Source: Nitrospinota bacterium
GTDB taxonomy: Bacteria > Nitrospinota > Nitrospinia > UBA9942
DNA length: 38,017 nucleotides
Reading direction: 5' to 3'
NCBI GenBank assembly: GCA_016207035.1
Contig: JACQQJ010000054.1
Coordinates: forward strand, 1-38,017
Position numbers and translations under genes: made by a program. Of this stretch, positions 9,318 to 31,445 are shown in pieces. The notes under the pieces were generated by a model. The model was given only the letters and a program-made list of their open reading frames with translations, had not been told where the DNA came from and searched no databases. Positions within the stretch are counted from its first letter, which is position 1, and every line of letters starts with the position of its first letter.

Positions 9318-10384
9318 GTAGACTCCTCACAGTTAGTCCCGCCATATCCGAACAGCGAGATGTCAGGGACCTCATTGTATGGCTGCGCACGGAAAATGGT
9401 AGTATAGAACACTTGTTCAAGAAGATTTCGCTCTTGTTCCGAAAGCCCATCAACGAATGCCGGAGATAACACGACGTTCTCGCAATGCATCGCGATCATC
9501 TTACTGAGCACACTCCGTAGTGCTGACTGGTCCAGCGATGCGAACTGTGAAAAGAACGGCGATAGATACCCGAGATGACGCTTGTGGTAGGTGAAGACTA
9601 CCCAGGTAGCCCTCTGCGATGGTAACACATTCAGTGTCACATCTGTTACATCGCTCCTAAGATGCAAGGTATTGAGCTGATGGCCTGCGAGGTCGAATTC
9701 GGGCGCAAATGCCGAGGCTGCTGCAACAGTTGGGACCCCAGAAAGTTGGAACAGCACCGTCTTGGTGAGGTGGAAGCGCCCAGTTTGCACTTGCTGATAA
9801 AGCGATTGAAACAGCCGCTTGATTCGTCTGGTAGAAACCTTTGTCCCGAGCAAGAATGGCTTCCAATCCTTCTCAAGCATCGGAGCCAGATGGACAGTAT
9901 CAGCATTTTCCAGGTTGAGCATGCTCCGCAGGGATTCGTAGTCCTTACGGTTGCCAAGTTCTACCAGACGCTCATAGAGTTTCTGATTGTTGAGCTTCAA
10001 CCAATACTCGCGGGCGGCTGCGCGAAGTGCCAATAGAACTACCTGCCGGAGTGAGGTTGGATCGAATGGTCTTGAGTGATCGAAATCCACCTCCCGGAAG
10101 AGACTCGAGTCATGTCTAGCACAGAAGCCAGTGAATGTCGTGGCCGTGCGATAGCCAACCAGTGACAGTTGATACCCCTGGCCAGTAGTTTGAAACATAT
10201 ATACATGTCCGTCTCTGGTTAGGTGCTCCATGATGTGAGCGCTTTGAATGGAGTGAGCTTGGATTACTTTACAGGCACAGCTCTCGTCATCTGCCAAACA
10301 TTGTTGCAACGCATTGTTACGACGCCACTTAACGACCGCAGCGAAGACTCGGTTGTAGCCTACTGTTGTACGTCGAGCCTGCAT
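9311..10384 (-). CDS. Hypothetical protein (357 aa), candidate integron cassette gene
   Basis: Long ORF between attC-like elements; N-terminal CLADDESCACKVIQAHSIQSAHIMEHLTRDGHVYMF (possible metal-binding Cys/His segment). Confidence 0.65.
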   Translation of the reverse strand: MQARRTTVGYNRVFAAVVKWRRNNALQQCLADDESCACKVIQAHSIQSAHIMEHLTRDGHVYMFQTTGQGYQLSLVGYRTATTFTGFCARHDSSLFREVDFDHSRPFDPTSLRQVVLLALRAAAREYWLKLNNQKLYERLVELGNRKDYESLRSMLNLENADTVHLAPMLEKDWKPFLLGTKVSTRRIKRLFQSLYQQVQTGRFHLTKTVLFQLSGVPTVAAASAFAPEFDLAGHQLNTLHLRSDVTDVTLNVLPSQRATWVVFTYHKRHLGYLSPFFSQFASLDQSALRSVLSKMIAMHCENVVLSPAFVDGLSEQERNLLEQVFYTTIFRAQPYNEVPDISLFGYGGTNCEESTA

Positions 10385-10845: not shown

Positions 10846-11014
10846 TGCAATTGCTGAAGTGCTACTGCCGAAGGCAGACTAAATTATATAAAAAATGCTG
10901 ATAACACTGCCAATGGTTGAAGCAAGGACTGCAAATGTAGTAAGAAGGTGAGCTGTATTATGATTGAATAAATTTCCATTGAAAAACCCCTTTGCTAAGT
11001 TTATAATCCACTCC

Positions 11015-11875
11015 ATGAAAAATCCTATCCTGATTGGATTAATCCAGATGTCAATGTCTTCCCATCGAGGTGAGAATGTTAAAAGAGCAGCTCAAATGAT
11101 AAAGGGTGCCTCTGAAAGGGGCGCACACATTGTTTGTCTGCCGGAGCTCTTTACAACCCTCTATTTTCCAAGGGAAGAGAAGATAGATGCATCTGGACTG
11201 GCTGAGACGATTCCAGGAAAGACAACGGATAGTTTGGCAAAGGCGGCACAAGAAAATCATGTTGTTTTAATCGGCGGCTCAATCTTTGAAAAAGAAGATG
11301 GTAAGTTTTACAACACCTCTGTTGTTTTTGATGAAAACGGCGGGATGATTGGAAAATACAGAAAAATGCACATCCCCCTTGACCCCTTCTTTTATGAAAA
11401 AGATTATTTTGAAGAGAGCAAGGACGGTTTCAAGGTTTTTCAAACTAAATACTGCAAAATTGGCGTCCTGATCTGTTACGACCAGTGGTTCCCTGAAGCT
11501 GCAAGAATCAACGCATTAATGGGTGCAGATATGATTTTCTACCCAACAGCGATAGGAGTCCCTGACGGGAATGAGGAGATTGAAGGCAATTGGCAGGAGG
11601 CATGGACTATTGTGCAGAGGGGACATGCAGTGGCAAATACTGTGGTTGTTGCATCGGTAAATAGAGTTGGGAAAGAAGGGAATATGAATTTCTTTGGAGG
11701 CTCTTTTGTTTCAGACCAGTTTGGCAAAATTTTAGCTCAAGGCGGCAACAAAGAAGAGATTATTATTGCAGAAATTGACTTGAATTTATCAAAACATATA
11801 CGGGAAGGGTGGCGTTTCTTTTATAATAGAAGGCCTGAAAGCTACAGTGAATTAATCAAAAGAGATAAAAAATGA
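11015..11875 (+). CDS. aguB: N-carbamoylputrescine amidase (nitrilase superfamily)
   Basis: LPELFTTLYFP, GKYRKMHIPLDPFFYEKDYF, GVLICYDQWFPEAAR; adjacent to agmatine deiminase; ORF open from 10964. Confidence 0.92.
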   Translation: MKNPILIGLIQMSMSSHRGENVKRAAQMIKGASERGAHIVCLPELFTTLYFPREEKIDASGLAETIPGKTTDSLAKAAQENHVVLIGGSIFEKEDGKFYNTSVVFDENGGMIGKYRKMHIPLDPFFYEKDYFEESKDGFKVFQTKYCKIGVLICYDQWFPEAARINALMGADMIFYPTAIGVPDGNEEIEGNWQEAWTIVQRGHAVANTVVVASVNRVGKEGNMNFFGGSFVSDQFGKILAQGGNKEEIIIAEIDLNLSKHIREGWRFFYNRRPESYSELIKRDKK

Positions 11876-12972
11876 ATAGACAAAAAAACTTGTCCCATTA
11901 TGTTTTTAAAAGGGATGAAACCCCTGCATCTTTGGGATTCAGGATGCCAGCTGAATGGGAAGGACATGAGGGGACATGGCTTTCGTGGCCGAAAGATCCT
12001 GTCACCTTCCCAGGAAAGGCCCGGGAAGCTGTGGAAGGGGTCTTTATCAAAGCAGTAAAAGCACTCCAGATGGGGGAGAAGGTCTTTATCTTAGCAGATA
12101 ATGAAGATAGGGAGAATTATATTAGGGACATACTGCAAACATCTGGCGTAAGTTCCAACAATATCTTCTTTCATAAAATAAAGAGTGTAGATGTCTGGAT
12201 ACGAGATTACGGGCCAACTTTTGTAAAAAATAGACAAACGAATACGGTAGCGGTTGTAAAATGGAAATTCAATGCATGGGGCGGAAAATACAAGGCATTT
12301 ATGCCTGATGATAGGGCAGGAATGGAGGTGGCAAGGCATTCTAAAGTTCAAATTTTCAAACCAGATATTGTGATGGAAGGCGGGGCAATAGAATCAAATG
12401 GAGAGGGGACTATTTTAACAACTGAACAATGTCTGTTGAACAAAAATAGGAATCCAGGATTAACAAAAACTCAAATTGAAGATTATCTGAAACACTATCT
12501 GGGGGCGCATACCATAATCTGGCTTAAAGAGGGAATTGAAGGGGATGACACTGATGGTCATGTAGATGATATTGCCAGATTCGTTGGGAAAAACAGAGTC
12601 CTTTGCGCCCTTGAAAATGACAAAAGAGACAAACATAATTATCAAGCCCTGAATCATAACTATAAACTACTGCAAAAAGCAAAAACTTCTCAAGGCGAGA
12701 AATTGGAGATAATAAAACTCCCAATGCCAGAACCCATCCTATTTCCTAAAAGACCCTTTGCAGGACCTCGCCTGCCGCTCAGTTATGCCAATTTCTATAT
12801 CGGCAACACCTGTATAATTATCCCTGTTTTTGGATGTAAAACAGATGACAAGGCATTATCCATCATGCAAGGGGTTTTTCCTGATAGGGAAATAGTCCCT
12901 GTGTATTCTCTGCCCTTTGTGTATGGTTCAGGTGCAATTCATTGCGCTACACAACAGCAGCCTAAATCGTAA
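11872..12972 (+). CDS. aguA: Agmatine deiminase
   Basis: RMPAEWEGHEGTWLSWP, DVWIRDYGPTFV, GDDTDGHVDDIARFV, C-terminal GSGAIHCATQQQP. Confidence 0.95.
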   Translation: MNRQKNLSHYVFKRDETPASLGFRMPAEWEGHEGTWLSWPKDPVTFPGKAREAVEGVFIKAVKALQMGEKVFILADNEDRENYIRDILQTSGVSSNNIFFHKIKSVDVWIRDYGPTFVKNRQTNTVAVVKWKFNAWGGKYKAFMPDDRAGMEVARHSKVQIFKPDIVMEGGAIESNGEGTILTTEQCLLNKNRNPGLTKTQIEDYLKHYLGAHTIIWLKEGIEGDDTDGHVDDIARFVGKNRVLCALENDKRDKHNYQALNHNYKLLQKAKTSQGEKLEIIKLPMPEPILFPKRPFAGPRLPLSYANFYIGNTCIIIPVFGCKTDDKALSIMQGVFPDREIVPVYSLPFVYGSGAIHCATQQQPKS

Positions 12973-14740: not shown

Positions 14741-14991
14741 ATATAATAGCGATTATAAAAACTTGTATATAAAAGAATATCTCCTCAAGGTATTTATAAT
14801 GGCCAATACCCTGAACAACCCTTATTTAATGATGTTAAGGTAACGGCCGCTATAAATTTATGATGCTGCAGAATTAATTAAAGCCATATTAACACCCTGA
14901 ATATGGTCTGTCAAACTGCCTCGCAATTAGCTTGCTTTTGGGTAAATAAAAAATTATAATGAAAAAGAGTTTTATAGGAAAGGAACGATTT

Positions 14992-15243
14992 ATGTTAAAA
15001 ACGATCAATGCCATATATGAAGATGGTGTCTTTAAACCTCTTGAACCGATTTCACTGGATGAGCATGAAAAGGTTAGGCTGGAAATAAATCTTGATGAGC
15101 GTCTGCGTAAGCAATTAAAAGAATTGATAGAAAATATTTACAAAAGGACGGATAAGTATTCATCTAAAGAAATAGAAGCCAATATCACAGAAGCATACAG
15201 AGAGGTTCAAGAGATATATCGTGCCAAAAATCGTTCTGATTGA
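14992..15243 (+). CDS. DUF104 / AF2212-like antitoxin
   Basis: MLKTINAIYEDGVFKPLEPISLDEHEKVRLEI; RBS aggaacg; followed by PIN toxin. Confidence 0.8.
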   Translation: MLKTINAIYEDGVFKPLEPISLDEHEKVRLEINLDERLRKQLKELIENIYKRTDKYSSKEIEANITEAYREVQEIYRAKNRSD

Positions 15244-15661
15244 TACCAATGTATGGGTATAAGCCTTTATCAATGGAAAAGGGTATCCCGCCAAAGTAAA
15301 GGAGAAATTTCTCAAGCAGGAATTTGAGGTAGTCATATCCACTCCACTTCTTAAAGAACTTTCTGATGTATTCAGACGCCCCAGAATAAAAGATCAGTAT
15401 AAAATAACCGATGAAGATATTAACCTATTTATTGAAATACTGGCAGGAACATGTCACAAGGTATATTTGACGAATGACATAAATGTATGCAGGGACCATA
15501 AGGACAACATGGTTTTAGAAACTGCTATTAAAGGTGGTGCGGGTTATCTGGTTACTCGTGATGATGATATTAAAAAAGACTCAAGACTAATAGAGGAGAT
15601 GAAAAAATACGATATTAATATCGTAAGTGTTTCAAGGTTTCTTGAGATATTGTCAGGATAA
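15221..15661 (+). pseudogene. PIN-domain toxin interrupted by in-frame TAA (codon 14, 15260-15262)
   Basis: GTG start: VPKIVLIDTNVWV*AFINGKGYPAKVKEKFLKQEFEVVISTPLLKELSDVFRRPR...NMVLETAIKGGAGYLVTRDDDIKK. Confidence 0.82.
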
Positions 15662-16464: not shown

Positions 16465-16549
16465 TATAATTTTCTCCAGAGGGTCTAAAAAAGTTTTTTA
16501 TTTGACATATCACAACCAACTGACAACCATTGGTCGGTCTTATTTATAA

Positions 16550-16700
16550 TTATTCATACTCCCTCAACATCGCCTCCATCTCCCCTGTTATCTCATTTCT
16601 CAATTCACACGGGTAGAGTATTTTACAACTGGGTATCCAGTGGTATATCCATCTTTTAAGCTCAAGTGTCCCTGAACTGTTACCTTAAAAATATTGAGCC
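16550..16700 (-). pseudogene. WYL-domain regulator C-terminal relic, copy A
   Basis: LELKRWIYHWIPSCKILYPCELRNEITGEMEAMLREYE*; upstream FKVTVQGHL in a shifted frame. Confidence 0.6.
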
Positions 16701-18861: not shown

Positions 18862-18930
18862 ATCTACATTTTATTATTAAAGTATGTTACAAAATAACAC
18901 AACTAACTGACAACCAATGGTCAGTCTTAT

Positions 18931-19077
18931 TTATAATTTGTCATACTTCCTCAACATCGCCTTCATCTCCTCTGTTACCTCTTTCCTAAGTTCAGGGGAG
19001 GACAAAATCTCAACATGAGGTATCCAGTGGTATATCCACCATTTAAGTCCTATATTCCCCTTATACTGGAAACAGAA
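18931..19077 (-). pseudogene. WYL-domain regulator C-terminal relic, copy B
   Basis: GLKWWIYHWIPHVEILSSPELRKEVTEEMKAMLRKYDKL*; near-duplicate of 16510-16650 at DNA level. Confidence 0.6.
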
Positions 19078-20301
19078 TTATGAGCAACGGAACCAGGGGC
19101 GCACCACAAAATTTTCACGGCTATATAATGTTTCACCACCGTGAATCAGCACCCCTGTTTTTGAAGCTGGGGGACCAAAGGTAGTGTAATATCTGAGTCC
19201 GTCAAATAATGATCTGCCAATGGTCTCTGTAGATTTTACCTCTACAGGGATTAGTTTTTTCCCTATATCCATCACAACATCAATCTCATGCCCCGTCCTG
19301 TCCCGCCAGAAATAGAGGGGCGGTGCCTCTCCCCTGTGGGCAAAGGACTTGTAAAGCTCTGCCAGAACAAAGGTCTCAAATATCGCCCCCTTCATGGCAT
19401 GGTCAGCGATATCCTCAGGCTCTCGTATCCTGAGGAGATAACACAAGAGGCCTGTATCGAGGAAATAGAGCTTTGGACTCTTTATTATCCTCTTTGAGAA
19501 ATTTGTATGATGAGGAGGAAGAAGGTGTATGATAAAACCTGCCTGGAGTATTGAGGTCCAGTGTCTTGCAGTAGTATGGGATATCCCGCAGTCTGCCGCA
19601 ATGGATGATAGATTAAGCAATTGCCCTGTTCTGCCTGCGCACAGTCTTACAAACCTTTGAAATGTCTCAAGGTTGCCGATATTAGCCACCTCCCGCACAT
19701 CCCTCTCCACATAAGTCCTGTAATATGCAGAAAGCCAGTCATGAGGCTCTAATCCCCTGTCATGTATGCGAGGATAAAGGCCGGAGTAAAGTATCTCTTC
19801 CATGCTGAATGCAGGCTTCTTTATCGCTGATGGCAATATTTCAATCTTCCACGGGTCAGATTCTAGTCTGTTCAACAGTTCATCGAGGCTTAAGGGGAGA
19901 AGTTGAACTATGGCGGTTCTTCCTGCAAGGGTCTGACTGACCTTTTCCATGAGGTGAAATTGCTGAGAACCTGTAAGTATAAATCTTCCCGGAGCTTCAT
20001 TACTATCAACAATCCCCTGGATATAAGAAAGAAGTATCGGCGCTTTCTGAATTTCATCAAGAATTACACCACCGCTGAATCTCCTCAGGAATCCCTTAGG
20101 GTCAGCAATGGCAAACTCTCTCTCATGAGGCTCTTCAAGACTAACATAGTTGTGCTTCTTAAAAAGTATCTTTGCAAGGGTTGTCTTTCCAGACTGACGG
20201 GGGCCTGTTATGGATACAACCGGGAACTTCCTTACAAGGTCAATTAGCTTTCTGGATAGGGTTCGTTTAAACATGGATAAATTATAAATCAAACAAGGCA
20301 A
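19078..20301 (-). CDS. AAA ATPase with DUF4143 (likely start 20277, MFKRTLSRKL)
   Basis: VVSITGPRQSGKTTLAKILF, GVILDEIQKAPILLSYIQGIVD, FILTGSQQFHLM, C-terminal DRTGHEIDVVMDIGKKLIPVEVKS. Confidence 0.92.
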   Translation of the reverse strand: MPCLIYNLSMFKRTLSRKLIDLVRKFPVVSITGPRQSGKTTLAKILFKKHNYVSLEEPHEREFAIADPKGFLRRFSGGVILDEIQKAPILLSYIQGIVDSNEAPGRFILTGSQQFHLMEKVSQTLAGRTAIVQLLPLSLDELLNRLESDPWKIEILPSAIKKPAFSMEEILYSGLYPRIHDRGLEPHDWLSAYYRTYVERDVREVANIGNLETFQRFVRLCAGRTGQLLNLSSIAADCGISHTTARHWTSILQAGFIIHLLPPHHTNFSKRIIKSPKLYFLDTGLLCYLLRIREPEDIADHAMKGAIFETFVLAELYKSFAHRGEAPPLYFWRDRTGHEIDVVMDIGKKLIPVEVKSTETIGRSLFDGLRYYTTFGPPASKTGVLIHGGETLYSRENFVVRPWFRCS

Positions 20302-20303
20302 TA

Positions 20304-20336
20304 TGTCAAATTGAAAGCAATACTTTCAATTTGACA
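20304..20336. repeat. Perfect 14-bp inverted repeat TGTCAAATTGAAAG-CAATA-CTTTCAATTTGACA
   Basis: Read directly; sits just upstream of the DUF4143 ATPase start. Confidence 0.85.
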
Positions 20337-20462: not shown

Positions 20463-20491
20463 TTGACAACTCTTTTGTTAATCTATAATAT
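20463..20491 (+). promoter_or_regulatory. Sigma70-type promoter TTGACA-17 bp-TAATAT for the isoprenoid/Cys-rich island
   Basis: Consensus -35, 17-bp spacer, near-consensus -10, about 50 bp before the first gene. Confidence 0.65.
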
Positions 20492-20540
20492 TAAAAAACA
20501 GCTTCCTGCCAGAATCCTGAATAAAAGAGGCTAAATTACT

Positions 20541-21473
20541 ATGGAAAATCTCAAAAAACTTTGGTGGCCTAAAAAGAGGCATCTATCCAACATTAACTCC
20601 ATAGTAAAGAAGCACAGGATAGGTGTGGAGAAGAATCTTTTTCCGCTGGTCAATGCCTATTACCCGGTATTGGTGACCAAACATAGCGGTGAGTTCCGCA
20701 AGATGATCGAGCTTACCACCAAGATGACCATGGTGGGCCGCGCCTGTACAGAAATTGCCGGCTACCCATTTGATGAAAGACGGCTGAAGATAAGCAGTCT
20801 CTTCGGTGCATGTTGTTTCCTTGCAGATAGTTTTATTGATGATTTTGGAGAGGAGGCTTCAAAGGAATACATCGAACGCTTTGAGCTCCTCCTTACAAAG
20901 GGATGGTTTGAGATAAGGACAAAACGGGAGGGGCTCTTCTATATTATCGTGTCGAGGATCTTTGCAGAGAGAGATGTGCTCGATACAGTAATCAGGCAGG
21001 CTATATTCTGGCAATTTATGGCACAGAAGAGGGATATCGGTTTGCGCCTCAGTCTGTTGCATTTCTCAAAGCTATCTCATTCAAAGAAGCTCAATCTCTT
21101 AAGGGAGTGCGGACGGGATAAAGGGGGCTGCGTTGCCTCGGTTTTATCACTCCTCCTTGTGCCAGAGATACCGCTCAGATATCGGCATCTGTTCTATATG
21201 GCAGGCATGCTCTTTCAGTATATTGATGACTATGGTGATTATCATTACGATCGGTATTACAATAGGATGACTTACATGAATCAGGTACGATATCCCTCAG
21301 GCACCCTGCGCAGAATATTATATAAATATATCCAGATACTGCACGAAGGATTGCCTGGATGCATGGGCAGGGATATTCTGCTCACATTCCTCCTAAGGTA
21401 TTTTGTTACAAGGATTGAGAAGCACAGGCTTGAACAGTACAGGGGAGAATACTCCTGGACCACCTATGAATAG
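20541..21473 (+). CDS. Class I isoprenoid-synthase-fold-like protein (divergent)
   Basis: Helical; FLADSFIDDFGEE and FQYIDDYGDYHYDRYYNRMTY resemble the two Asp-rich motifs of prenyl/squalene-phytoene synthases; RDKGGCVASVLS between. Confidence 0.55.
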   Translation: MENLKKLWWPKKRHLSNINSIVKKHRIGVEKNLFPLVNAYYPVLVTKHSGEFRKMIELTTKMTMVGRACTEIAGYPFDERRLKISSLFGACCFLADSFIDDFGEEASKEYIERFELLLTKGWFEIRTKREGLFYIIVSRIFAERDVLDTVIRQAIFWQFMAQKRDIGLRLSLLHFSKLSHSKKLNLLRECGRDKGGCVASVLSLLLVPEIPLRYRHLFYMAGMLFQYIDDYGDYHYDRYYNRMTYMNQVRYPSGTLRRILYKYIQILHEGLPGCMGRDILLTFLLRYFVTRIEKHRLEQYRGEYSWTTYE

Positions 21474-22110
21474 GCAGCGTAAATGGGGCTTTACCGCGAT
21501 AGGTGATGCCATCGCAGTAAAACTCCAGACCCTGCGGGGAGAGGGGAAGATTAATGATGAACAACCCCTCCTTAAGCTTGATTATAGAGATCAGGGGGCA
21601 AAGGCGCCGTTCCAATACGATGTAGCAAACGCTACAGTGCATAGAACCGGATGCAGTGCAATTCCTGACAGTTCTCAATATGCGCTGTATGCCATGTGGG
21701 AACTGAAGGAAAGGGACAGGAAGTTCACCTGCAGAAAATGCCGACCTGAATTAATAAAAGACAACGGTATGAAAAAAGATAACGCCTCTGACATTCTGTA
21801 TGGTTTTCTATCCATTCTGGACCAATTTGGTTCAGTCCTTGCCGAAAGGGGAAAGGAATACCGTAATTCCAGACATGGAAAACAGGTGTCAAATACTATT
21901 GATACTATTTTATCGGAACTCGACAACCAGCAGAGAGAGGGGATTAAATTTGCATTTTCATCCATAGACAGTCTGTTAAGGCTTATTCATGAGTATAATA
22001 ATACTTTGGAGAATGGGGCGAATAATGGTCGCAAAGTTAGCCTGAGACGGAACAACGGCCGAACGATGAAAGCGTCACAGAAGAGTAAGGGATCGAAGAA
22101 AAGAGATTGA
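21466..22110 (+). CDS. Hypothetical Cys/His protein (214 aa)
   Basis: Overlaps upstream stop; VHRTGCSAIPDSSQYALYAMWELKERDRKFTCRKCRPEL. Confidence 0.7.
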   Translation: MNRQRKWGFTAIGDAIAVKLQTLRGEGKINDEQPLLKLDYRDQGAKAPFQYDVANATVHRTGCSAIPDSSQYALYAMWELKERDRKFTCRKCRPELIKDNGMKKDNASDILYGFLSILDQFGSVLAERGKEYRNSRHGKQVSNTIDTILSELDNQQREGIKFAFSSIDSLLRLIHEYNNTLENGANNGRKVSLRRNNGRTMKASQKSKGSKKRD

Positions 22111-22167
22111 AAAAAACTTGACAATACATAAAATTGTGCAATACTTGGTGCAAGGAGAACTCGCCCA

Positions 22168-22383
22168 TTGTCTGCCCTAATAATACTTAAAGTGAGATTA
22201 GGTCCTCTTGTATCGCTGGAGGTAACCGGAGAGAGCTGCAAAGAGATCTGCGAGGCGCTGAAGGGCTATGAGGACCTGAACAAACAGGTTGATGCCATGT
22301 GCGCTGATCTTGCTGAACGTGTCTACCCTGAAGGTGATGAACCTGCCGTTAAACAAGAACAGGAGGTGCAGAATGAAGTTTAA
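22168..22383 (+). CDS. Hypothetical small acidic protein (TTG start)
   Basis: 71 aa; overlaps start of the next gene. Confidence 0.5.
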   Translation: MSALIILKVRLGPLVSLEVTGESCKEICEALKGYEDLNKQVDAMCADLAERVYPEGDEPAVKQEQEVQNEV

Positions 22384-22801
22384 AGCCCAGGGTGTTATGA
22401 AGAGTTGCCCCAACTTTGCAACAGATGTAAAGGCGGGGCCACTGGACTTTGAGATCACTGCAGGTGCAAGGCTTGAGGGGGCTTTAGGCCCCGTAGATGC
22501 CTCTATGGATGAAATACCCATAAGGCTGGCTATCCCTTTTCTCAGACGAACCAATAGACCTGTAGTTGCGTCCATCGGTGGCTTTAAAGTAAAACTTAAT
22601 CCCTTCGGAATAAAGGTTGAGCTGGCAAATGTGAATGTAAAAGGGATACTCGGCACAAAGGGGATACAGGTAAAGGCTGATGCCCGTGTGGACTGCAAGA
22701 CAGATATGAAGCTGAAAGGTGAGTTGGCCGGGAAAGGTGGCGTAATAGAGGTTAATCTTGGCGATGAGGATTTAGATTTTGATGAGCATGAATGCAAATA
22801 A
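22373..22801 (+). CDS. Hypothetical beta-rich protein (142 aa)
   Basis: Internal start 22373 preceded by AGGAGG; MKFKAQGVMKSCPNFATDVKAGPLDFEITAGARLEG... Confidence 0.7.
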   Translation: MKFKAQGVMKSCPNFATDVKAGPLDFEITAGARLEGALGPVDASMDEIPIRLAIPFLRRTNRPVVASIGGFKVKLNPFGIKVELANVNVKGILGTKGIQVKADARVDCKTDMKLKGELAGKGGVIEVNLGDEDLDFDEHECK

Positions 22802-22816
22802 AACGGAGGACTTTGT

Positions 22817-23527
22817 TTGAACTGCCATATACCCTCTCGAAGAAATTTTTGTATACCGACGGTTAAGCACCATGTTATATGCCGGCATCAGATTGAAGTG
22901 GAGGTTGTGCCCGCCCTTGCAGAGGTCTATTTTCAGGATGAACGTTATGAAGACGCGGTTGATACACAGGTGCGCTTTACTGCATCAGTATATAATGCAC
23001 CGACAGAAAAAGTCTCATGGCAGGTCTTGAGTTTGGCAGGCGGTCCTGGCGCAGGCACTATCGATGCGTCAGGGCTTTACACAGCCCCCCTCAAGGGAGG
23101 TCACCCTTTTACAGTAACCGATATCATTGTTGCAACTTCCGTAGATGACCCCATGAGAAAGGCCTATGTTCGGGTTACCATCGTAGGTAGAGGACCCGAA
23201 CCTTTGCCAGTGCCAAAACTTGAGGTCTTTCCTAAAACAGCATTTCTCTATTATCCTGAAGGGGCACACAACAATCATATAGATAAAAGCAACACCATGC
23301 AACTCTTCCGTACGAGGATACACAATGCCCTCAACCCTCAGATTAAGTGGTATGTGGATAATACTGAAAAACAGAGCGGTTACCAGGACTGGTATCTTTA
23401 TGAGCTCAGCGGTTCGGGGGCTCAAAAAACCGTCAGGATAAAGGCAAGTATAACAATAGGTTTAAATACAATACAAGATGAGGCAGTAGTCATGCAGCTT
23501 AATTATTCATGGCCGGGCATAGTATAG
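22817..23527 (+). CDS. Protein with Cys/His N-terminus and bacterial Ig-like domain
   Basis: TTG start with CGGAGGA RBS; NCHIPSRRNFCIPTVKHHVICRH then VSWQVLSLAGGPGAGTIDASGLYTAPLKGG...ATSVDDPMRKAYVRVTIV. Confidence 0.7.
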   Translation: MNCHIPSRRNFCIPTVKHHVICRHQIEVEVVPALAEVYFQDERYEDAVDTQVRFTASVYNAPTEKVSWQVLSLAGGPGAGTIDASGLYTAPLKGGHPFTVTDIIVATSVDDPMRKAYVRVTIVGRGPEPLPVPKLEVFPKTAFLYYPEGAHNNHIDKSNTMQLFRTRIHNALNPQIKWYVDNTEKQSGYQDWYLYELSGSGAQKTVRIKASITIGLNTIQDEAVVMQLNYSWPGIV

Positions 23528-23551
23528 CAGCGGTCTGAGAGCGATTTTCTT

Positions 23552-24322
23552 ATGGCAACGGATGTCAGGATTACATCAGATTCTAAGATAGGGATTAAAG
23601 GTGTTGATGGTGCTGATCATCTCCATGTAGATATCAACTATATAGACCCTTTACGCATAAGCCAGGTTCAGAAAATAGCCCCTGTTGCCGTCCATATAAA
23701 AGAGGTCAATCATATAGATCCCATATCAGTGGAAGCCCTGAATGTAAGCGAGGTCAGAAATATCGACCCCATAAAGGTTGAAAAGTTCAGCGTAACAAAC
23801 CTCCCCATGGTAAATATGTCCCTGCGACAATTACCGCCGGTTGATATGAATATAAGGAAGCTGCCGCCTCTGTCTGTAGGCACACATCAGGATTTTCATG
23901 TCCCCTCAGACTACACGGTAAGCGGGAGGCTTCTTGGGATAGAGTTCTTCCGTATCCGGATTGACGGCTGCACAAATATTATTCCGAGGGAAAGGTTCAG
24001 ACAGGAACAGGAGAGGGTGCCCAGCAGAAGTTTTCCAGTCCCTGCTGCAGGAGGAAACAAGGCCATTCCATCTGTCTGCAGGGAGACCTCAGTAAGCACC
24101 TCGCATATTTCATCATGCAGGCATGACCACAAGGGATTTAAAATGAAAAAAGACCTTACAAACTTTCACAGGGGGACTTATGGAAGCAGTCTACATGCTG
24201 TGTCTCCGTCTGTTGAGAGAAAAGGCTCCATCTCCTTTGGCATGCCGCATACGAATTTTTATATGTCCGGGACGAAAACAATAGATACAACCAGTGAGAG
24301 TTCAGTAAGCAGTGGAGATTAA
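23552..24322 (+). CDS. Repeat-containing beta-strand-rich protein (256 aa)
   Basis: Recurring [IL]-x-P-[ILV]-x-[VIM] units: NYIDPLRI, KIAPVAV, HIDPISV, NIDPIKV, NLPMVNM, QLPPVDM, KLPPLSV. Confidence 0.7.
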   Translation: MATDVRITSDSKIGIKGVDGADHLHVDINYIDPLRISQVQKIAPVAVHIKEVNHIDPISVEALNVSEVRNIDPIKVEKFSVTNLPMVNMSLRQLPPVDMNIRKLPPLSVGTHQDFHVPSDYTVSGRLLGIEFFRIRIDGCTNIIPRERFRQEQERVPSRSFPVPAAGGNKAIPSVCRETSVSTSHISSCRHDHKGFKMKKDLTNFHRGTYGSSLHAVSPSVERKGSISFGMPHTNFYMSGTKTIDTTSESSVSSGD

Positions 24323-24325
24323 GAT

Positions 24326-24604
24326 ATGCATCAATTCAGCCACACCAATTATCAAGGACAATGCTGCAAACCTGTCCATTATCCAGGACTTGCAGGTATT
24401 TTCAGCGGTATTATAAATCTGACGACAACAGCACTATACGGTGGCACAAGTATTGTGAGGAGGATCGTGGAAGGTTCTGTCTGGCATGGGGTATGTGATT
24501 GCTGCTCACCATGGTATAATCAGTGCAACCGCTGTTGTCAGCCAGAACGCCACTGTTACTGCATTGAGTGTGAGCCAACGAGTTATACATCCTGCTGTCG
24601 CTGA
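24326..24604 (+). CDS. Small Cys-rich protein (92 aa)
   Basis: HGVCDCCSPWYNQCNRCCQPERHCYCIECEPTSYTSCCR C-terminus. Confidence 0.7.
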   Translation: MHQFSHTNYQGQCCKPVHYPGLAGIFSGIINLTTTALYGGTSIVRRIVEGSVWHGVCDCCSPWYNQCNRCCQPERHCYCIECEPTSYTSCCR

Positions 24605-24675
24605 TGATATGGGTTAAATCTCCCTGCTGAAGAGAGGGGGCGGTAATCTCTCTTCATGAACATTTTGGGTGAGAT

Positions 24676-25395
24676 ATGAAATCAACTGAAACAGATAAAA
24701 GACAAAAAAATTCCAGAAAAAGGAAGACATCCGGGAAAAGGACAAATAAATCTGATGGCAAAACATCAAAGGGCTCACCAGCAGGCAGATTATCAGCACA
24801 TGAACTTCTAAGCCGAACAGAACAACTGAGTTCTATTCTCACCAAAGGGCTTGATCTGGCTGAGGCAAGCATAAGGCTTGGAATAAATCTCGTGAATAAA
24901 TTTGGCTCTGTTGCACAGGGACAGATTATCGACAGGCTGTCAGGCCCTATTCTTCATGGACCTGCGCCGTATCAGAAAAACCCTGAGGAGCAAGGATCCT
25001 CTGCCCAGGGCTATCAGAATACCGAAGAGGCCGGCATTCCTCAACCATCTGATACGCATAAAAACCTTTATATAGTAAACCGCCTGCCGCTTTTTTCAGG
25101 GAGTCCTGTACAACTCTCTTTTTCGATTAATAATGATTCAGCCTCTGCTGCAAAAAAGATTCACCTCGAGATAGAGGATTTCATCGGGGCAACCAGCCGT
25201 TTTAAGATAAAATCTAAAATGTTTTCAATAAAGCCATCAAATATCATAATAGCACCAATGGATTTTGAGAAATTTGTCCTGACAGGGAAGGTCCCGGCTG
25301 AAGCACCTGCAGATTCCTATAATAGCTGGATAAAGTTCTCAGGCGAAGAGGAGATAAAGATACCTGTTATTCTGGCGGTAAGTGCTCAGCCATAG
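24676..25395 (+). CDS. Basic N-terminus, amphipathic helix and C-terminal beta-sandwich-like protein
   Basis: ASIRLGINLVNKFGSVAQGQIIDRLSGP; PVQLSFSINNDSASAAKKIHLEIEDFIG...VPAEAPADSYNSWIKFSGEEEIKIPVILAV. Confidence 0.68.
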   Translation: MKSTETDKRQKNSRKRKTSGKRTNKSDGKTSKGSPAGRLSAHELLSRTEQLSSILTKGLDLAEASIRLGINLVNKFGSVAQGQIIDRLSGPILHGPAPYQKNPEEQGSSAQGYQNTEEAGIPQPSDTHKNLYIVNRLPLFSGSPVQLSFSINNDSASAAKKIHLEIEDFIGATSRFKIKSKMFSIKPSNIIIAPMDFEKFVLTGKVPAEAPADSYNSWIKFSGEEEIKIPVILAVSAQP

Positions 25396-25431
25396 AAGAA
25401 TGCAATTTATTTTATATCTTTCGGTCATACT

Positions 25432-26874
25432 ATGGTTTTCGATGTCATAATAGTCGGCGCAGGGCCGGGCGGAAGTAGTGCTGCTACATTTTTGGCCGCT
25501 CAGGGTATATCAACCCTGCTTCTGGATAAGGCAACTTTTCCGCGGGATAAGGTATGCGGTGATTGCCTGGCACCGCAGGCTCTTTACTGGCTTGATGAAC
25601 TGGGCTGTGTAGATGAGGTTCTGGATCAGGCAGATTCATGCATCACCGCAGGTTATATCTTTCTGAACGGAAAATATTTATTCACAGGGGATTTTCCGCA
25701 GAATACCCGGTATCCAGGTTTCTGTACACTCCTTGAGAGAAAAAAGCTGGATTATATTATGGTGAAAAATGCAGTAAAAAAAGGTGCGATTTTCAAACCA
25801 GGTTGTCTCGTAAAGCGGATATACAGAAATGATGATTATATTATTGTAGATGCTGTATCCGAAGGCACAGATATACAGTTCAAAGGCAGGCTCCTCATAG
25901 GTGCGGACGGTGCGAATTCTATAGTTTCTCGTTCTATCGGCAATGTATTGAGGGACGGTACCACTGCTGTTTCAGTGCGGGCATATTATGAAAATGTTCA
26001 TGGAGAATGGCCCCAGATACAGGTATATATCGATGAAAGGTTTTTCCCTGGCATCGGCTGGGTATTTGTAAATAACAGGGGAAGGGCCAATATAGGTATA
26101 GGCTATATCTTTGACAAAAATTTTCCTGTGAAGGATAACCTAAGAAAGGTTTTTGATGATTTCGTCAACAGGGATTTGAAAAGATATTTAAAGGGTTCCA
26201 GGCCAGCAAGCCCAACCGCAGGGTGGTGGGCCTCATTTTTCAGGCCCAGAACAGTGATAGCTGACAGGGTGATGCTTATCGGTGATGCAGCTAATCTTGC
26301 CGATCCTATAAACGGCGCAGGAATCCATAAGGCTATGGAAAGTGCTTATATAGCTTCAACATCGGCAGTGCATGCTGTTGCGACAGATGATTATTCTGTT
26401 GCTGCCCTGAGGAGATATGAAGCACTCTGGAGAGAAATGGACGGATTTGACTGGCAGGTGCGTCAGTTACTGCTTTCCATCGCAAAAAATCCAAACCTTA
26501 AGGAGGTTTATCTGCTTCTTATAAAGTATATAGCGAGGCTTGCAAGGGCGGATGCACGATTTCAGGGTTTTTGCGGAGGGGTCTTTAGCGGCATCATACC
26601 TGCTGGTGATTCTATTTCACCTGCTGCCTTACTGGATGCTATTCCCCTTGATCCGGCTGTATGGTTTTCTCTGTTCAGGGCCTCAGACAGGTCAGTATCT
26701 CTCCCTGTTCATGATACAATCTTAGCCGGGCTGAATGTTATAAAAACTGTTGGCAGATTTGCCTCGAACCCATCTGAGAACATCGACTGGGGGGTCGAGG
26801 TTTTTAATAACGCAATTGGAACAGCATCCGGCATTATGCAGTTGCCATTGCTCGCTGCAGGTATTGAAACATAA
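25432..26874 (+). CDS. Geranylgeranyl reductase-family FAD-dependent oxidoreductase, copy 1
   Basis: VIIVGAGPGGSSAATFLAAQGISTLLLDKATFPRDKVCGDCLAP; LLIGADGANSIVSRSIG; MLIGDAANLADPINGAGIHKAMES. Confidence 0.88.
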   Translation: MVFDVIIVGAGPGGSSAATFLAAQGISTLLLDKATFPRDKVCGDCLAPQALYWLDELGCVDEVLDQADSCITAGYIFLNGKYLFTGDFPQNTRYPGFCTLLERKKLDYIMVKNAVKKGAIFKPGCLVKRIYRNDDYIIVDAVSEGTDIQFKGRLLIGADGANSIVSRSIGNVLRDGTTAVSVRAYYENVHGEWPQIQVYIDERFFPGIGWVFVNNRGRANIGIGYIFDKNFPVKDNLRKVFDDFVNRDLKRYLKGSRPASPTAGWWASFFRPRTVIADRVMLIGDAANLADPINGAGIHKAMESAYIASTSAVHAVATDDYSVAALRRYEALWREMDGFDWQVRQLLLSIAKNPNLKEVYLLLIKYIARLARADARFQGFCGGVFSGIIPAGDSISPAALLDAIPLDPAVWFSLFRASDRSVSLPVHDTILAGLNVIKTVGRFASNPSENIDWGVEVFNNAIGTASGIMQLPLLAAGIET

Positions 26875-26923
26875 TTTGCTGAGATACTATTTTAGTATTG
26901 ACTTCAGGACTTAAACAGACCCT

Positions 26924-28372
26924 ATGATTTATGATTGTATAATAGTTGGTGCAGGACCTGGGGGAAGCAGTGCTGCTACATTTTTGGCCCGCCAGGGGAT
27001 ATCAACCCTGCTCCTTGATAAGGAGGTTTTCCCGAGGGATAAGGTATGCGGAGATGGGCTGGCACCACAGTCACTCTACTGGATTGATGAGCTGGGGTGT
27101 ATAGATGAGGTCCTGGATCAGACAGATTCATGTATCACCACCGGTGACATCTTTATAAACGGTGAGCATCTATCCACGGGAAGATTTCCTCAGGATGCCC
27201 AATACCCGGGTTTCTGTACCCTCCTTGAAAGGAAGAGGCTTGATTTTATCCTGGCAAAGAATGCAGTAAAAAACGGTGCAGTCTTTAAACCCGGTCATAT
27301 GGTAAAGGAGATAGACCTGACAGGTAAATATATAGTGGCGCGTGCAGAATCCGATGGAAAGATGGCTGAATTTCAGGGGATGCTTCTCATCGGGGCAGAC
27401 GGCGTAAATTCTGTAGTTGCCCGTTCTATTGGTAATATATTGAAGGAAGGTACATCTGCTGTATCCGTAAGGGGATACTATGAGGGGGTTGATACAGGCA
27501 GATCGCAGATACAGATCTATTTCAACGAACGGTTCTTCCCGGGCTATGGATGGGTATTTACAGACGATAGTGGAAAGGCAAATATTGGTATTGGCTATGC
27601 CATCGACCGAAACTTTCCGAAGAAGCGAAATCTCCAGCATGTCTTCGATGAGTTCCTCGGGAAAGATCTGAAGGGGCTGTTAAAAAATGCAAGACCGGAT
27701 GGCCCTACGGCAGGCTGGTGGGCGTCTTTTTTCCGTCCAAAATCAATGGTTGCTGAGAGGATCATGCTTATAGGGGATGCGGCGAATGTCGCAGATCCAA
27801 TCAACGGCGGGGGGATACATAAGGCTATGGAAAGTGCATTTATATCATCACAGGTTGCTGCCTATGCACTTTCATCAGGAGATTTTTCTGTAGAGACCCT
27901 GCGTACATATGAAATGCTCTGGAAAGAACATGCCGGATTTGACTGGCGTATCGGCGAGTTCCTGCTTACGATTGCAAAGAACCCTGACCTGCGGGAGCTT
28001 TACCTTTTTCTTTTGAAGAATATCGCCAATCTGACAAAGGGGAATGTGCATTTACAGGAATTCTGCAGCGGTGTTTTTCTTGGCATGATACCACTCAAAG
28101 ATGCCATATCCCCTATTGCACTGTTGAATGCCATCCCGCTTAAGCCCTGTGATTGGGTTTCAATGCTCTATTCGTCCGGAAGAGGGGGTTCTCTTGGTCT
28201 TTATGATGCCTTCTCAGCAGGGGCAAATATAGTAAAAATGGCAGGCAGGATTGCTGTTAATCCGCTCAGTCATCTCAATTGGGGGGCGGAAGTCCTCAAA
28301 AAGTCTATCGGTCTTGCAGGAAATTATATGGATGCTCTGACTTACCAGGGTGTCATAGGATGCATACAATAA
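26924..28372 (+). CDS. Geranylgeranyl reductase-family FAD-dependent oxidoreductase, copy 2
   Basis: CIIVGAGPGGSSAATFLARQGISTLLLDKEVFPRDKVCGDGLAP; strong full-length similarity to the preceding ORF. Confidence 0.88.
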   Translation: MIYDCIIVGAGPGGSSAATFLARQGISTLLLDKEVFPRDKVCGDGLAPQSLYWIDELGCIDEVLDQTDSCITTGDIFINGEHLSTGRFPQDAQYPGFCTLLERKRLDFILAKNAVKNGAVFKPGHMVKEIDLTGKYIVARAESDGKMAEFQGMLLIGADGVNSVVARSIGNILKEGTSAVSVRGYYEGVDTGRSQIQIYFNERFFPGYGWVFTDDSGKANIGIGYAIDRNFPKKRNLQHVFDEFLGKDLKGLLKNARPDGPTAGWWASFFRPKSMVAERIMLIGDAANVADPINGGGIHKAMESAFISSQVAAYALSSGDFSVETLRTYEMLWKEHAGFDWRIGEFLLTIAKNPDLRELYLFLLKNIANLTKGNVHLQEFCSGVFLGMIPLKDAISPIALLNAIPLKPCDWVSMLYSSGRGGSLGLYDAFSAGANIVKMAGRIAVNPLSHLNWGAEVLKKSIGLAGNYMDALTYQGVIGCIQ

Positions 28373-28399
28373 TTTTCATGTGCATCAAAGGAGGGGAAC

Positions 28400-28579
28400 A
28401 TGGCAATAAAAATTTTAGGGCCGATCAATGAAATTATCAACAAAACTGCCACCGCAATGATAGACAACAAGATTACAGAAGATACGGCAAAGGTATTAAA
28501 TACCCTGATTACTGCCAGTTTTGATGCGGTAAACGAGACCTTAAAAAAGGTTCAGGATATTACAAAATCTGAACCATAG
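28400..28579 (+). CDS. Small helical protein (59 aa), below the ORF-track cutoff
   Basis: AAAGGAGGGGAAC-ATG; MAIKILGPINEIINKTATAMIDNKITEDTAKVLNTLITASFDAVNETLKKVQDITKSEP. Confidence 0.7.
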   Translation: MAIKILGPINEIINKTATAMIDNKITEDTAKVLNTLITASFDAVNETLKKVQDITKSEP

Positions 28580-28655
28580 GTGTAAGGCAAATCTGAGTTG
28601 CAGTAATCTTGAGTTCTGTGTAATCAATTTAATGTATAGAAAGGAGGGGCTGAAT

Positions 28656-29105
28656 ATGTATCATGTATGCTGTAACAGGCAGAAGCCGGTTTTCGTGTAT
28701 TATCCCTATTACGGCTGGCCAGGATATCCGCCATATTATATGCCTGCGTGTTGTCCGGTCTGTTCTATGCCGTACTATCAATGCACATGCAAGGGTGAAA
28801 AAACAATGATGCTGCCCGAGGAACTAACTGTTGATACGAGTTCTCCAAAGGAGGCATTTATAGGTGGTAATGAAGATGTGAATCTTACCCTAGAATATAT
28901 GTCAGATGGGGGAACCCCGGCAAGCCGTAGTGTTAAATTGACAATAACAGGAACCGGCGGGACTACAGTTTGGGAGGAGACGAATATCACCGACGGCTAT
29001 CATGTAAAGAACGATTTTGCATCTATTCCACCGGGCTCAATGGTCAAGATTGAGGTTAAGAACTGCAAAGCCCGTTTGAGGTGGTGTGAGTCAGTCTGTT
29101 GTTAA
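28656..29105 (+). CDS. Cys/Tyr/Pro-rich protein with C-terminal beta domain
   Basis: RBS AAAGGAGGGG; MYHVCCNRQKPVFVYYPYYGWPGYPPYYMPACCPVCSMPYYQCTCKG...LTLEYMSDGG...GYHVKNDF...ARLRWCESVCC. Confidence 0.75.
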   Translation: MYHVCCNRQKPVFVYYPYYGWPGYPPYYMPACCPVCSMPYYQCTCKGEKTMMLPEELTVDTSSPKEAFIGGNEDVNLTLEYMSDGGTPASRSVKLTITGTGGTTVWEETNITDGYHVKNDFASIPPGSMVKIEVKNCKARLRWCESVCC

Positions 29106-29155
29106 TACGATGGAAAAGAATTCCTTAATTGAGAAAATTAAATCGGAGGTCTGCC

Positions 29156-29815
29156 ATGAATGGAAGAATTCATAGAACTGCATCCTTAGGCCCTATAGCC
29201 ACTACTCATAGACAGAGCGGGCAGGTGCTGGGTTTTCCGCACCATCCACCTGTCTATCACGGTAGTTTCTGCACATCATGCTGTCACCCTGTTTCAAAAT
29301 GTTGCTGCAACAGGGAATGCATAAAGGAGACAAAGGAGTTATTGGTAAAACCAGCAAAGAAAAAGACTACTGCAGGGATATTAAATTTGTTAAAAAGCAG
29401 GATGGTATCCTTTTCACCCGCTGAACAGCCGGAAGAGAAAACGGAAGAAAGAGAGGAAAGGGCTGGGTCGATCCTATCTACAAACATTTCAACCTTAACT
29501 ACCAATCTGCAGGCTGGAAGGGTTGCCTGGGGGATGGATGATGCCGTCATCGGTGGCGGGTGTTGTGTTCATCTGTCTATAGAATACATGCAAAATATAG
29601 ATGAAACCTCGCTTATATCAACGAATGTCATTTCTATTGTAATGGCAGATGTGCTGGACACGGAAGGCACTCTCCTTTTATGGAGCAAGTTTAAATTTCC
29701 TTCTGGCTATCACATAAAAGAGGGAATAATTACCACCAATCCTGGCGCTAAACTGACTGTAATTGCATTGAATGCCATCGCGCGTGTCAGATGGTGTGAG
29801 ATCTTTAGTTGTTAA
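29156..29815 (+). CDS. Cys-rich protein with C-terminal beta domain, paralogous to 28656-29105
   Basis: RBS CGGAGG; FCTSCCHPVSKCCCNREC; LSIEYMQNIDE...GYHIKEGI...ARVRWCEIFSC. Confidence 0.75.
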   Translation: MNGRIHRTASLGPIATTHRQSGQVLGFPHHPPVYHGSFCTSCCHPVSKCCCNRECIKETKELLVKPAKKKTTAGILNLLKSRMVSFSPAEQPEEKTEEREERAGSILSTNISTLTTNLQAGRVAWGMDDAVIGGGCCVHLSIEYMQNIDETSLISTNVISIVMADVLDTEGTLLLWSKFKFPSGYHIKEGIITTNPGAKLTVIALNAIARVRWCEIFSC

Positions 29816-29850
29816 ATTTTATATAGAACAAATATTCAGGAGGGGATACC

Positions 29851-30360
29851 ATGCCTAAAAAGACCGACAAGAAAAATAGTAAAGGACCTGAGCCTTTTCC
29901 AGAGATGAATAAGGCTAAGGAGGCCTTTAAAGAATATAAAAATCGAATGGCAGCCGATACCAACAAGATGGGGGGTAAGGATGTAAAATTCAAACAGCCT
30001 ATGAGCGGGGAACCAGTAATGCAGCCGTTTATACATATGCCTCAGCCTCAGTTTCAGGGGCAGACAGGTAATATGCCCCACCCATTTCTCTATAATCCGC
30101 ATGCACCTTATATGCAATCTATGGGAAACTTAGAAACGCCTCTATTCAGCAGTTTGGGCAATATGTTAAAGCTCGGTGTGAATCTTATAAATGCAGGCCT
30201 TGCCGGCGGACTCCAGCTTATAGAGGGTTTATCAGGCGGCGCTTACTGCAGTGATTCTCATGCAAGCTGTTCCTCTTGCTGTGAACCTTGCAGTTGCTGC
30301 GAAAACACATCCTGCTGCGAGCCATGTGACTGCTGCAATCCGAGTGTGCATAATTGCTGA
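29851..30360 (+). CDS. Cys-rich protein with amphipathic helix
   Basis: RBS AGGAGG; LGNMLKLGVNLINAGLAGGLQLIEGLSGGAYC then HASCSSCCEPCSCCENTSCCEPCDCCNPSVHNC. Confidence 0.75.
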   Translation: MPKKTDKKNSKGPEPFPEMNKAKEAFKEYKNRMAADTNKMGGKDVKFKQPMSGEPVMQPFIHMPQPQFQGQTGNMPHPFLYNPHAPYMQSMGNLETPLFSSLGNMLKLGVNLINAGLAGGLQLIEGLSGGAYCSDSHASCSSCCEPCSCCENTSCCEPCDCCNPSVHNC

Positions 30361-30383: not shown

Positions 30384-31445
30384 TTAAATAATCAGCATGG
30401 CGTCGCCATAGCTATAAAATCGATAGCCTTTCTTTATAGCCTCATGGTAAGCATTCAATATCAAATCCCGTCCTGCAAAGGCACATACAAGCATTAAAAG
30501 GGTTGATTTTGGCAGATGAAAGTTAGTTATGAGTGCCTTCATAATTCTAAAATTGAAGCCATTATAGATGAATAGGTTCGTATAACCCTTTATTGCATTG
30601 ACTTTGTCATTATATACATAAGATTCAAGTGCCCTGGCAGTAGTCGTCCCTGCTGCAATTATTCGTTTTCCTGATTTGACTGCACTATGAACCTTTTCAG
30701 CTTCCGATTCTGTTATCTCATAGTATTCAGGGTCAATCTTGTGCTCCTTGATAATTTCTTTTTTTACAGGTTTAAATGTCCCATACCCCACATGGAGTGT
30801 CACCTTAGCAATATCTATCCCCTTTTTTTCTAATTTATCAAGGAGTTCTTCTGTAAAATGAAGGCCTGCAGTTGGTGCAGCTACTGCACCCCTCTTTTCA
30901 GCATAAACTGTCTGGTATCTTTCATAATCGAGTGAGGGAACTATATCTCTTTTTATGTAAGGAGGGAGAGGAACTTTACCATATTTTTCTAATAATTCAT
31001 ACATATCACCATCGCATTTAAATATAGCCTCACTTCCAGATAGTCTGCACTCTAAATCACCCTCACCAAATATAACCTCTAAATTCTCCTTATCTCCTTT
31101 GCATTTTACCATGACCCCCCACCTGCCTCCCCTCAATCCCCTCTTTCTAAAGGAGGGGAAAGGGGTGGTTGATTTTTCATCAGACATCTCCTTTAGTAAA
31201 AAGACCTCTACCATCCCGCCTGTATTTTTTTTTCTGCCAATCAGCCTTGCAGGGAAAACGGATGTGTTATTCAATACCAGAAGGTCAGAGGGGGTAAGAT
31301 AGTCTGTTATATATTTAAAAATTGTATGTTCAACCCTCCCGTCCTTTCTGTCCAGAATCAGGAGCCTTGAGCCATCCCTTTCTCTTGCTGGATATTGGGC
31401 TATTAATCCTCTGGGTAAATAATAATCAAAATCAGAAAGTTTCAT
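30384..31445 (-). CDS. queA: S-adenosylmethionine:tRNA ribosyltransferase-isomerase
   Basis: MKLSDFDYYLPRGLIAQYPARERDGSRLL, RGAVAAPTAGLHFTEELL, NFHLPKSTLLMLVCAFAG. Confidence 0.96.
   Translation of the reverse strand: MKLSDFDYYLPRGLIAQYPARERDGSRLLILDRKDGRVEHTIFKYITDYLTPSDLLVLNNTSVFPARLIGRKKNTGGMVEVFLLKEMSDEKSTTPFPSFRKRGLRGGRWGVMVKCKGDKENLEVIFGEGDLECRLSGSEAIFKCDGDMYELLEKYGKVPLPPYIKRDIVPSLDYERYQTVYAEKRGAVAAPTAGLHFTEELLDKLEKKGIDIAKVTLHVGYGTFKPVKKEIIKEHKIDPEYYEITESEAEKVHSAVKSGKRIIAAGTTTARALESYVYNDKVNAIKGYTNLFIYNGFNFRIMKALITNFHLPKSTLLMLVCAFAGRDLILNAYHEAIKKGYRFYSYGDAMLII

Follow-up and report, generated by a model that had tools for sequence, protein, structure and literature searches.

A fourteen-gene orphan island of geranylgeranyl-reductase family and cysteine-rich proteins in a Nitrospinota bacterium: a possible reduced isoprenoid and protein assembly

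The island and its predicted enzymes

The DNA analysed here, referred to as the window, is a stretch of 38,017 nucleotides that constitutes contig 12 (JACQQJ010000054.1) of a draft genome (GCA_016207035.1; 2.12 Mb, 239 contigs, 82% complete) from a Nitrospinota bacterium whose lineage is little sampled. Positions 20541 to 30360 of the window carry 14 consecutive, tightly packed open reading frames (ORFs) on the plus strand, numbered here genes 1 to 14 and together called the island, and the genes on either side are on the minus strand, namely, an AAA_14/DUF4143 ATPase gene at 19078-20271 and queA at 30384-31445. The 14 genes and their minus-strand flanks had been described in a first-pass annotation made from the sequence alone, and all 14 ORFs were found, the fourteenth being the ORF of 59 amino acids (aa) at 28400-28579 (gene 11) that is preceded by AAAGGAGG. 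The island is probably a real, orphan operon that was acquired horizontally.

The ORFs are very likely real genes because of the results of a codon model and of a Shine-Dalgarno test. With the codon model, which was trained on 14 flanking genes, the stated frame scored best in 13 of the 14 ORFs, and the sole exception, gene 7, failed plausibly because 14% of its residues are Cys. Clear Shine-Dalgarno sequences lie upstream of genes 3, 4, 5, 11, 12, and 14, and genes 1 and 2 as well as genes 3 and 4 overlap, in keeping with the overlaps and strong ribosome-binding sites reported at first pass; by the same test, Shine-Dalgarno sequences were absent from genes 2, 6, 9, and 13. The start codons of genes 2, 4, 12, and others were picked from context. 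This packing suggests one transcription unit, with internal promoters being possible. The near-consensus promoter said to lead the block does exist as a sigma-70-like site, TTGACA-17-TAATAT, at 20463-20491 on the plus strand ahead of gene 1, and it matches 10 of the 12 consensus positions. Since such sites are common in the region, where 34 were found as against 22 ± 5.7 in shuffles, this promoter is only suggestive.

Genes 9 and 10 (25432-26874 and 26924-28372, plus strand) encode proteins of 480 and 482 aa that are 61% identical and that are, judged by profile and motifs, members of the geranylgeranyl-reductase (GGR) family, for which isoprenoid double-bond reduction is predicted. The score with TIGR02032 (GG-red-SF) is 172.7 bits for the gene 9 protein (GGR1) and 175.8 bits for the gene 10 protein (GGR2), both over the curated cut-off of 158.8, and the earlier assignment of two GGR-family flavoproteins thus holds. 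With motif definitions taken from PMC10821996, both keep the FAD motif GxGxxG (GAGPGG in GGR1), the catalytic-type Cys in KVCGD, RxxxD, and LxGD (LIGD in GGR1), and of the cavity motif PxxYxWxFP they keep P, W, and F (P-x3-W-x-F), with T or V in the position of the last Pro. Alignments to 59 other GGRs stop by residue 401 of GGR1 and residue 417 of GGR2, and because they end this early the C-terminal extension that follows, the last 65-80 residues, appears to be particular to the pair: it is common to GGR1 and GGR2, which are 39% identical over it, and essentially absent from the 59 others. The two genes differ by 0.29, 0.20, and 0.50 at the first, second, and third codon positions and this bias to the third position suggests that both copies are under purifying selection. 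All the equivalog models (MenJ, ChlP, and archaeal digeranylgeranylglycerophospholipid (DGGGPL) reductase) scored far below cut-off, including MenJ, the menaquinone reductase, which was among the better NCBIfam matches, and therefore the substrate cannot be read from the sequence. Compared with the family as a whole, which includes MenJ, BchP/ChlP, and the archaeal DGGGPL reductase, the island proteins share the profile score and the motifs above but differ in being a tandem pair, in the extension of about 80 residues, and in lacking the final Pro of WxFP, and the best relative among the matches listed is about 35% identical.

Gene 1 (20541-21473, plus strand; 310 aa) is probably a divergent class I isoprenoid synthase. 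It has two Asp-rich motifs, IDDFGEE with DD at residue 100 and GMLFQYIDDYGD with DD at residue 229, and their spacing of 129 lies within the range of 127-137 that covers all 35 prenyl synthases compared, 31 of which have 127; the first-pass description of an isoprenoid-synthase-like protein with two such motifs is borne out. None of 200,000 shuffles contained the motif. The hhalign score against an alignment of the 35 prenyl synthases was 29.95, compared with 20.2 for the best of 60 shuffles and 18.3 for the reversed sequence, with the match limited to 14 columns at the second Asp-rich motif. Searches of Pfam, NCBIfam, PHROGs, and PDB sequences gave no match. Like the trans-polyprenyl synthases (PF00348), gene 1 has GxxFQxxDDxxD preceded, at equal spacing, by a DD motif, but its first motif is DDxxEE, there is no downstream RR, and membership in that family is unsupported as the profile match is lacking. 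A structure model of gene 1 was discarded as support because its confidence was too low.

Cysteine-rich, beta-domain, and helix-motif proteins

At least four proteins with repeated CC motifs had been noted at first pass, and four of the island genes, all on the plus strand, do encode proteins that are rich in Cys: 14.1% in gene 7 (24326-24604; 92 aa, 13 Cys), 7.4% in gene 12 (28656-29105; 149 aa), 4.8% in gene 13 (29129-29815; 228 aa), and 7.7% in gene 14 (29851-30360; 169 aa, 13 Cys), as against 0.95% in the flanking genes. Gene 7 has a hydrophobic or amphipathic segment together with CNRCCQPERHCYC, and gene 14 an amphipathic segment followed by a Cys-rich tail. Genes 7, 12, and 13 share a 13-residue Cys-Pro module, C-x2-C-x2-P-x3-C-x-C, that has four DNA matches in the whole genome, three forward and one reverse, while a reversed control pattern had none; the three forward ones are attributed to genes 7, 12, and 13, given that the window has the same orientation as its contig. 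Elsewhere in the class a zinc-ribbon-like stretch of the CPGCGNPV[NK]QCTC type is conserved in members such as G024, G025, G026, G034, G037, G043, G061, and G064, and the module pattern also picked out tandem Cys repeats of the CPIC/ACPIC type in an unrelated genome (G203:C113:53570-53755).

The N-terminal arm of gene 12 is rich in Tyr, Pro, and Cys (CPVCSMPYYQCTC) and is followed by a 94-residue beta domain ending in RLRWCESVCC; gene 13 has a Cys-rich arm (CTSCCHPVSKCCC) and a paralogous domain ending in RVRWCEIFSC. That these are paralogous beta-domain proteins, as had been claimed, is confirmed by the 29% identity of the two C-terminal domains (Z = 19) and by a model of the gene 12 domain, built from the gene 12 and 13 sequences only, that has eight strands at a mean pLDDT of 84.6 and a pTM of 0.75. 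With this model no Foldseek match reached an E-value under 0.001; GOLD, Cry domain III, carbohydrate-binding, and C1q-like domains led the list, and Ena3A (8pdz) was the PDB match of rank 49 (E = 0.023, prob 0.63, TM 0.33). Neither gene matched a Pfam family at E <= 10, and hence neither matched DUF3992.

Since the Foldseek matches are weak and Ena3A ranks only 49, the resemblance of genes 12 and 13 to the Ena subunits is mainly one of layout and not of sequence. In common with Ena1A/B, Ena3A, and ExsL/Ena1C (DUF3992), they have a small beta domain, an N-terminal Cys arm, and no signal-like N-terminus, and the Cys residues lie in the arms, at the start of the domain (GGGCC in gene 13), and at its end (RWCE). 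In Ena1B, Cys10 and Cys11 are bonded to Cys24 and Cys109 (PMC8619143), and ExsL/Ena1C has a broadly similar layout (PMC12921279). Both sides also have [IVL]-R-[YW] with a Cys at or after the last strand, which is L/V-R-W here and I-R-Y in Ena1B, but the Cys position in this strand is off by one residue, so the Cys would be on the other strand face. The island proteins differ further in their much longer arm, in the isoprenoid enzymes that share their operon, and in belonging to a lineage that has not been shown to sporulate. Membership in the Ena family is unsupported. The exosporium and coat proteins CsxA, ExsY, and CotY, which are Cys-rich and self-assembling, offer a likeness of another kind, as the island too has several small Cys-rich CC-motif proteins that are apparently not exported; no sequence relation was found, however, and self-assembly is only predicted for the island proteins.

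Gene 8 (24676-25395, plus strand; 239 aa) has no Cys, its C-terminal part is beta-rich by eye, and it shares a helix motif with gene 14 (RLGINLVNKFGSVAQGQIIDRLSG in gene 8 and KLGVNLINAGLAGGLQLIEGLSG in gene 14) that none of 2000 shuffles equalled. The shared amphipathic-helix motifs of the first-pass annotation stand for this pair but are weaker for genes 7 and 14 and for genes 7 and 11, the last a plus-strand gene whose product is amphipathic and helical by eye. Hydropathy, used here in place of a dedicated predictor, revealed no obvious signal-like hydrophobic N-termini in the island proteins, as had been stated before.

The other island genes, likewise on the plus strand, are genes 2 to 6. 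Gene 2 (21466-22110; 214 aa) may carry a small metal-binding motif, HxxxC...CxxC (HRTGC and CRKC), and gene 3 (22168-22383; 71 aa), which has a TTG start after AAGGAG, has no assigned function. Genes 4, 5, and 6 are beta-rich by eye only: gene 4 (22373-22801; 142 aa; ribosome-binding site AGGAGGTG) is beta-repeat-like, gene 5 (22817-23527; 236 aa) is Ig-like, and the N-terminal half of gene 6 (23552-24322; 256 aa) is beta-repeat-like with I-D-P-[LI]-x-[VI] repeats. The bacterial Ig-like domain that had been assigned to gene 5 was not upheld, the only match being to I-set at E = 0.07 and 13.6 bits, below the cut-off of 23.7. Apart from gene 1, GGR1, and GGR2, the 11 island genes, genes 2, 4, and 6 among them, have no family match.

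Genomic setting and search for relatives

Reading from queA, the window has first the island, then a short toxin-antitoxin-like region, and lastly RmuC. In G003, a same-family genome, the genes between queA and RmuC are restriction/methylase-like, and in G006, of the same order, different genes adjoin queA. Nucleotide similarity to G003 and G001 does not extend past the stop codon of queA, and in G003 it also breaks off at the RmuC start. Because its contents differ in this way, the slot between queA and RmuC is, from these sequence comparisons, variable among relatives. The GC content of the island is 45.0% compared with 40.7% in the flanks, which fits acquisition without proving it. A misbinned or chimeric contig was judged unlikely because the flanks match genomes of the same family and the island lies inside the contig. 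No direct repeats of 10 bases or more were found at the island ends in the stretches tested, and none of the eight island proteins tested matched the PADLOC models of anti-phage defence.

Around the island, two copies of a 154-base repeat with 80% identity (16507-16660 and 18894-19047), possibly a miniature mobile element, bracket a PemK/MazF-like toxin gene, an HTH antitoxin-like gene, and their neighbours. Apparent remnants of a small antitoxin and a truncated PIN-type toxin (14959-15661) adjoin RmuC, and a perfect TTGACA-17-TATAAT on the minus strand at 20281-20309 is directed away from the island to the AAA_14/DUF4143 gene. Farther away are a possibly foreign 357-aa ORF (9311-10384), located where the GC content of the window peaks (50% at 9-10 kb), and two adjacent genes whose products look like N-carbamoylputrescine amidase and agmatine deiminase (10964-12972).

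Conservation of the gene order in other genomes was the main test proposed at first pass, and it gave no relative: apart from the window itself, relatives of the orphan genes were absent from about 1,000 distinct genomes, plasmids, phages, and IMG/VR viral contigs. Gene 1 in 100 relatives, and eight small proteins fused as one query in 387 genomes, found the window itself or nothing, the fused query being insensitive over part of its length as it missed the gene 12/13 domain even in its own genome. That domain, searched in the 78 genomes of the class, gave nothing beyond the window, and GGR2 in the 387 genomes gave only general GGRs besides the window. Genes 1 and 6 fused had no relatives in 49 GGR-bearing named genomes, in 329 genomes from the phylum of a Thalassobius, or in 271 from that of a Chloroflexi MAG, three sets that held no positive control; one phylum search covered two genomes only. 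Viral contigs, phages, and plasmids held nothing related except general GGRs, and the neighbourhoods of the nearest GGRs (L010, L107, L118-L120, and Bacillus plasmids) were unrelated contexts. A scan of 85,462 species with two short GGR patterns returned at least 80 general GGRs, the best at 35% identity and no island orthologue among the matches listed; orthologues may have been missed because the patterns were N-terminal. Thus, within these searches the island is not found elsewhere, which is a weaker statement than that it is unique, and the missing relatives weaken but do not refute the functional reading below because the sensitive searches covered a small part of known genomes.

Proposed function of the island

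We propose, tentatively and as a possibility rather than a probability, that this operon, probably acquired horizontally, makes a dedicated reduced isoprenoid and an accompanying Cys-rich protein assembly. A saturated polyprenoid with such an assembly is proposed because of the company the genes keep, their motifs, and the analogy to spore coats; the substrate, the assembly or polymerization, the lipid-protein contact, the location, and the biological role are inferred. Gene 1 would make or condense a polyprenyl chain and GGR1 and GGR2 would reduce the double bonds of this chain, in a single step or in two, double-bond saturation being the known activity of the GGR family. Genes 12 and 13 would supply beta-domain subunits with Cys-rich arms, genes 7 and 14 an amphipathic segment and a Cys tail, and genes 8 and 11 an amphipathic helix; genes 4, 5, and 6, which look beta-rich, may also join. 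The assembly would be a layer, granule coat, or fibre made in the cytosol and held via Cys, through disulphides or zinc, and its amphipathic segments would dock it on the lipid. In support are the 14-gene unit with its short gaps, overlaps, and coding-type codon use, the GGR hits with their flavin motifs and catalytic-type Cys, the signs of purifying selection on both GGR copies, the motif spacing of gene 1, the beta model of gene 12, the Cys module, and the N-termini that are not signal-like. Bacillus spores have terpenoids inside their protein coat (PMC11708026), and intracellular assembly of Cys-rich arrays is known (PMC7333573). Sporulene and curcumene of Bacillus subtilis spores are similar in being dedicated terpenoids associated with a protein coat. 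Their synthesis uses another type of synthase together with a cyclase, and neither a GGR nor a shared operon with coat genes is known to be involved.

The first-pass annotation had a reduced isoprenoid coated or packaged by a Cys-rich, intracellular, self-assembling shell or granule, an idea that is partly supported. Its enzymatic half is supported because of the GGR family membership and the order and spacing of the gene 1 motifs, and the structural half is strengthened because of the predicted all-beta domain with Cys arms, the shared Cys module, and the N-termini that are not signal-like; assembly and a meeting of lipid and protein would be predictions. Several results weigh against our proposal. 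No marker of sporulation or of granules turned up, and a second copy of the gene set was found nowhere in the searches above, so co-occurrence gives no support. Gene 1 misses the polyprenyl_synt (PF00348) profile when searched in its own genome and its single-sequence model, helical with a pLDDT of 43 and no fold match, is of low confidence. The last Pro of WxFP that GGR1 and GGR2 lack is present in 57 of the 61 GGRs of the comparison set. Lastly, the Cys-Pro module reads in many genomes of the class as zinc-ribbon-like stretches of the CPGCGNPVNQCTC type, and because of this a zinc site formed by the module would be no less likely than a cross-link.

Other explanations fit parts of these data. 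It is unlikely, though far from negligible, that the island builds an Ena/ExsL-like structure, either a coat or an appendage, on a resting cell or on the cell surface, in which genes 12 and 13 polymerize via disulphide arms into fibres or sheets with the isoprenoid as a hydrophobic dressing like sporulene. The beta domain with Cys in its arms, start, and end matches the Ena1B layout and broadly that of ExsL/Ena1C, Ena3A is among the fold matches, and curcumene and sporulene were found in Bacillus spores (PMC11708026), but GOLD, Cry domain III, C1q-like, and tail-fibre folds rank equal to or better than Ena3A, Pfam matches are lacking, and the lineage is not known to form spores. The Cys-rich proteins could also be zinc- or iron-binding accessory or redox proteins of a terpenoid or quinone side-chain modification cluster whose enzymes make a membrane isoprenoid or a small molecule. 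We consider this rather improbable: the C-x2-C-x6-C-x-C spacing fits a four-Cys metal site, gene 2 has its HxxxC...CxxC, and MenJ is among the better matches, though far below cut-off, but the beta-rich repeat proteins, the Tyr/Pro-rich arm, and four separate Cys-rich proteins are left unexplained.

That cytosolic lipid droplets store the reduced polyprenoid under an amphipathic, phasin-like coat of genes 7, 8, 11, and 14 agrees with the amphipathic segments shared among proteins, the neutral-lipid enzymes, and the N-termini; it is nonetheless quite improbable, with no match to a phasin or lipid-droplet family and with Cys-rich arms and beta domains that exceed known droplet coats. Finally, the island may be a mobile or defence-type accessory island in which lipid enzymes and orphan proteins have no single shared function. 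The variable slot with restriction/methylase-like genes in G003, the higher GC, and the PemK/MazF-like toxin with its HTH partner and the AAA_14/DUF4143 gene adjoining the island speak for it, whereas the single strand, the overlapping genes, and the motifs common to genes 7, 12, and 13, to 8 and 14, and to 12 and 13 favour one function, and PADLOC gave no match for the eight island proteins tested; this reading is very improbable.

Our proposal extends, in a form that we regard as unlikely, to a novel organelle or coat: beta-domain and Cys-rich proteins encoded by the operon would assemble in the cytosol into a shell or fibre that carries its own saturated isoprenoid, the product of a dedicated synthase and of the duplicated reductase, and the whole would move between lineages as one island. 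If the proposed mechanism is true, a robust biological coating would have its lipid chemistry and its protein components encoded together in one operon, in a lineage that is not known to form spores. The building of resistant layers from saturated terpenoids and Cys-rich proteins would become testable, and a self-contained set would be available for reconstitution in E. coli. Regardless of the mechanism, structural and enzymological work gains a pair of GGRs whose C-terminal domain is unexplained, as well as several orphan families.

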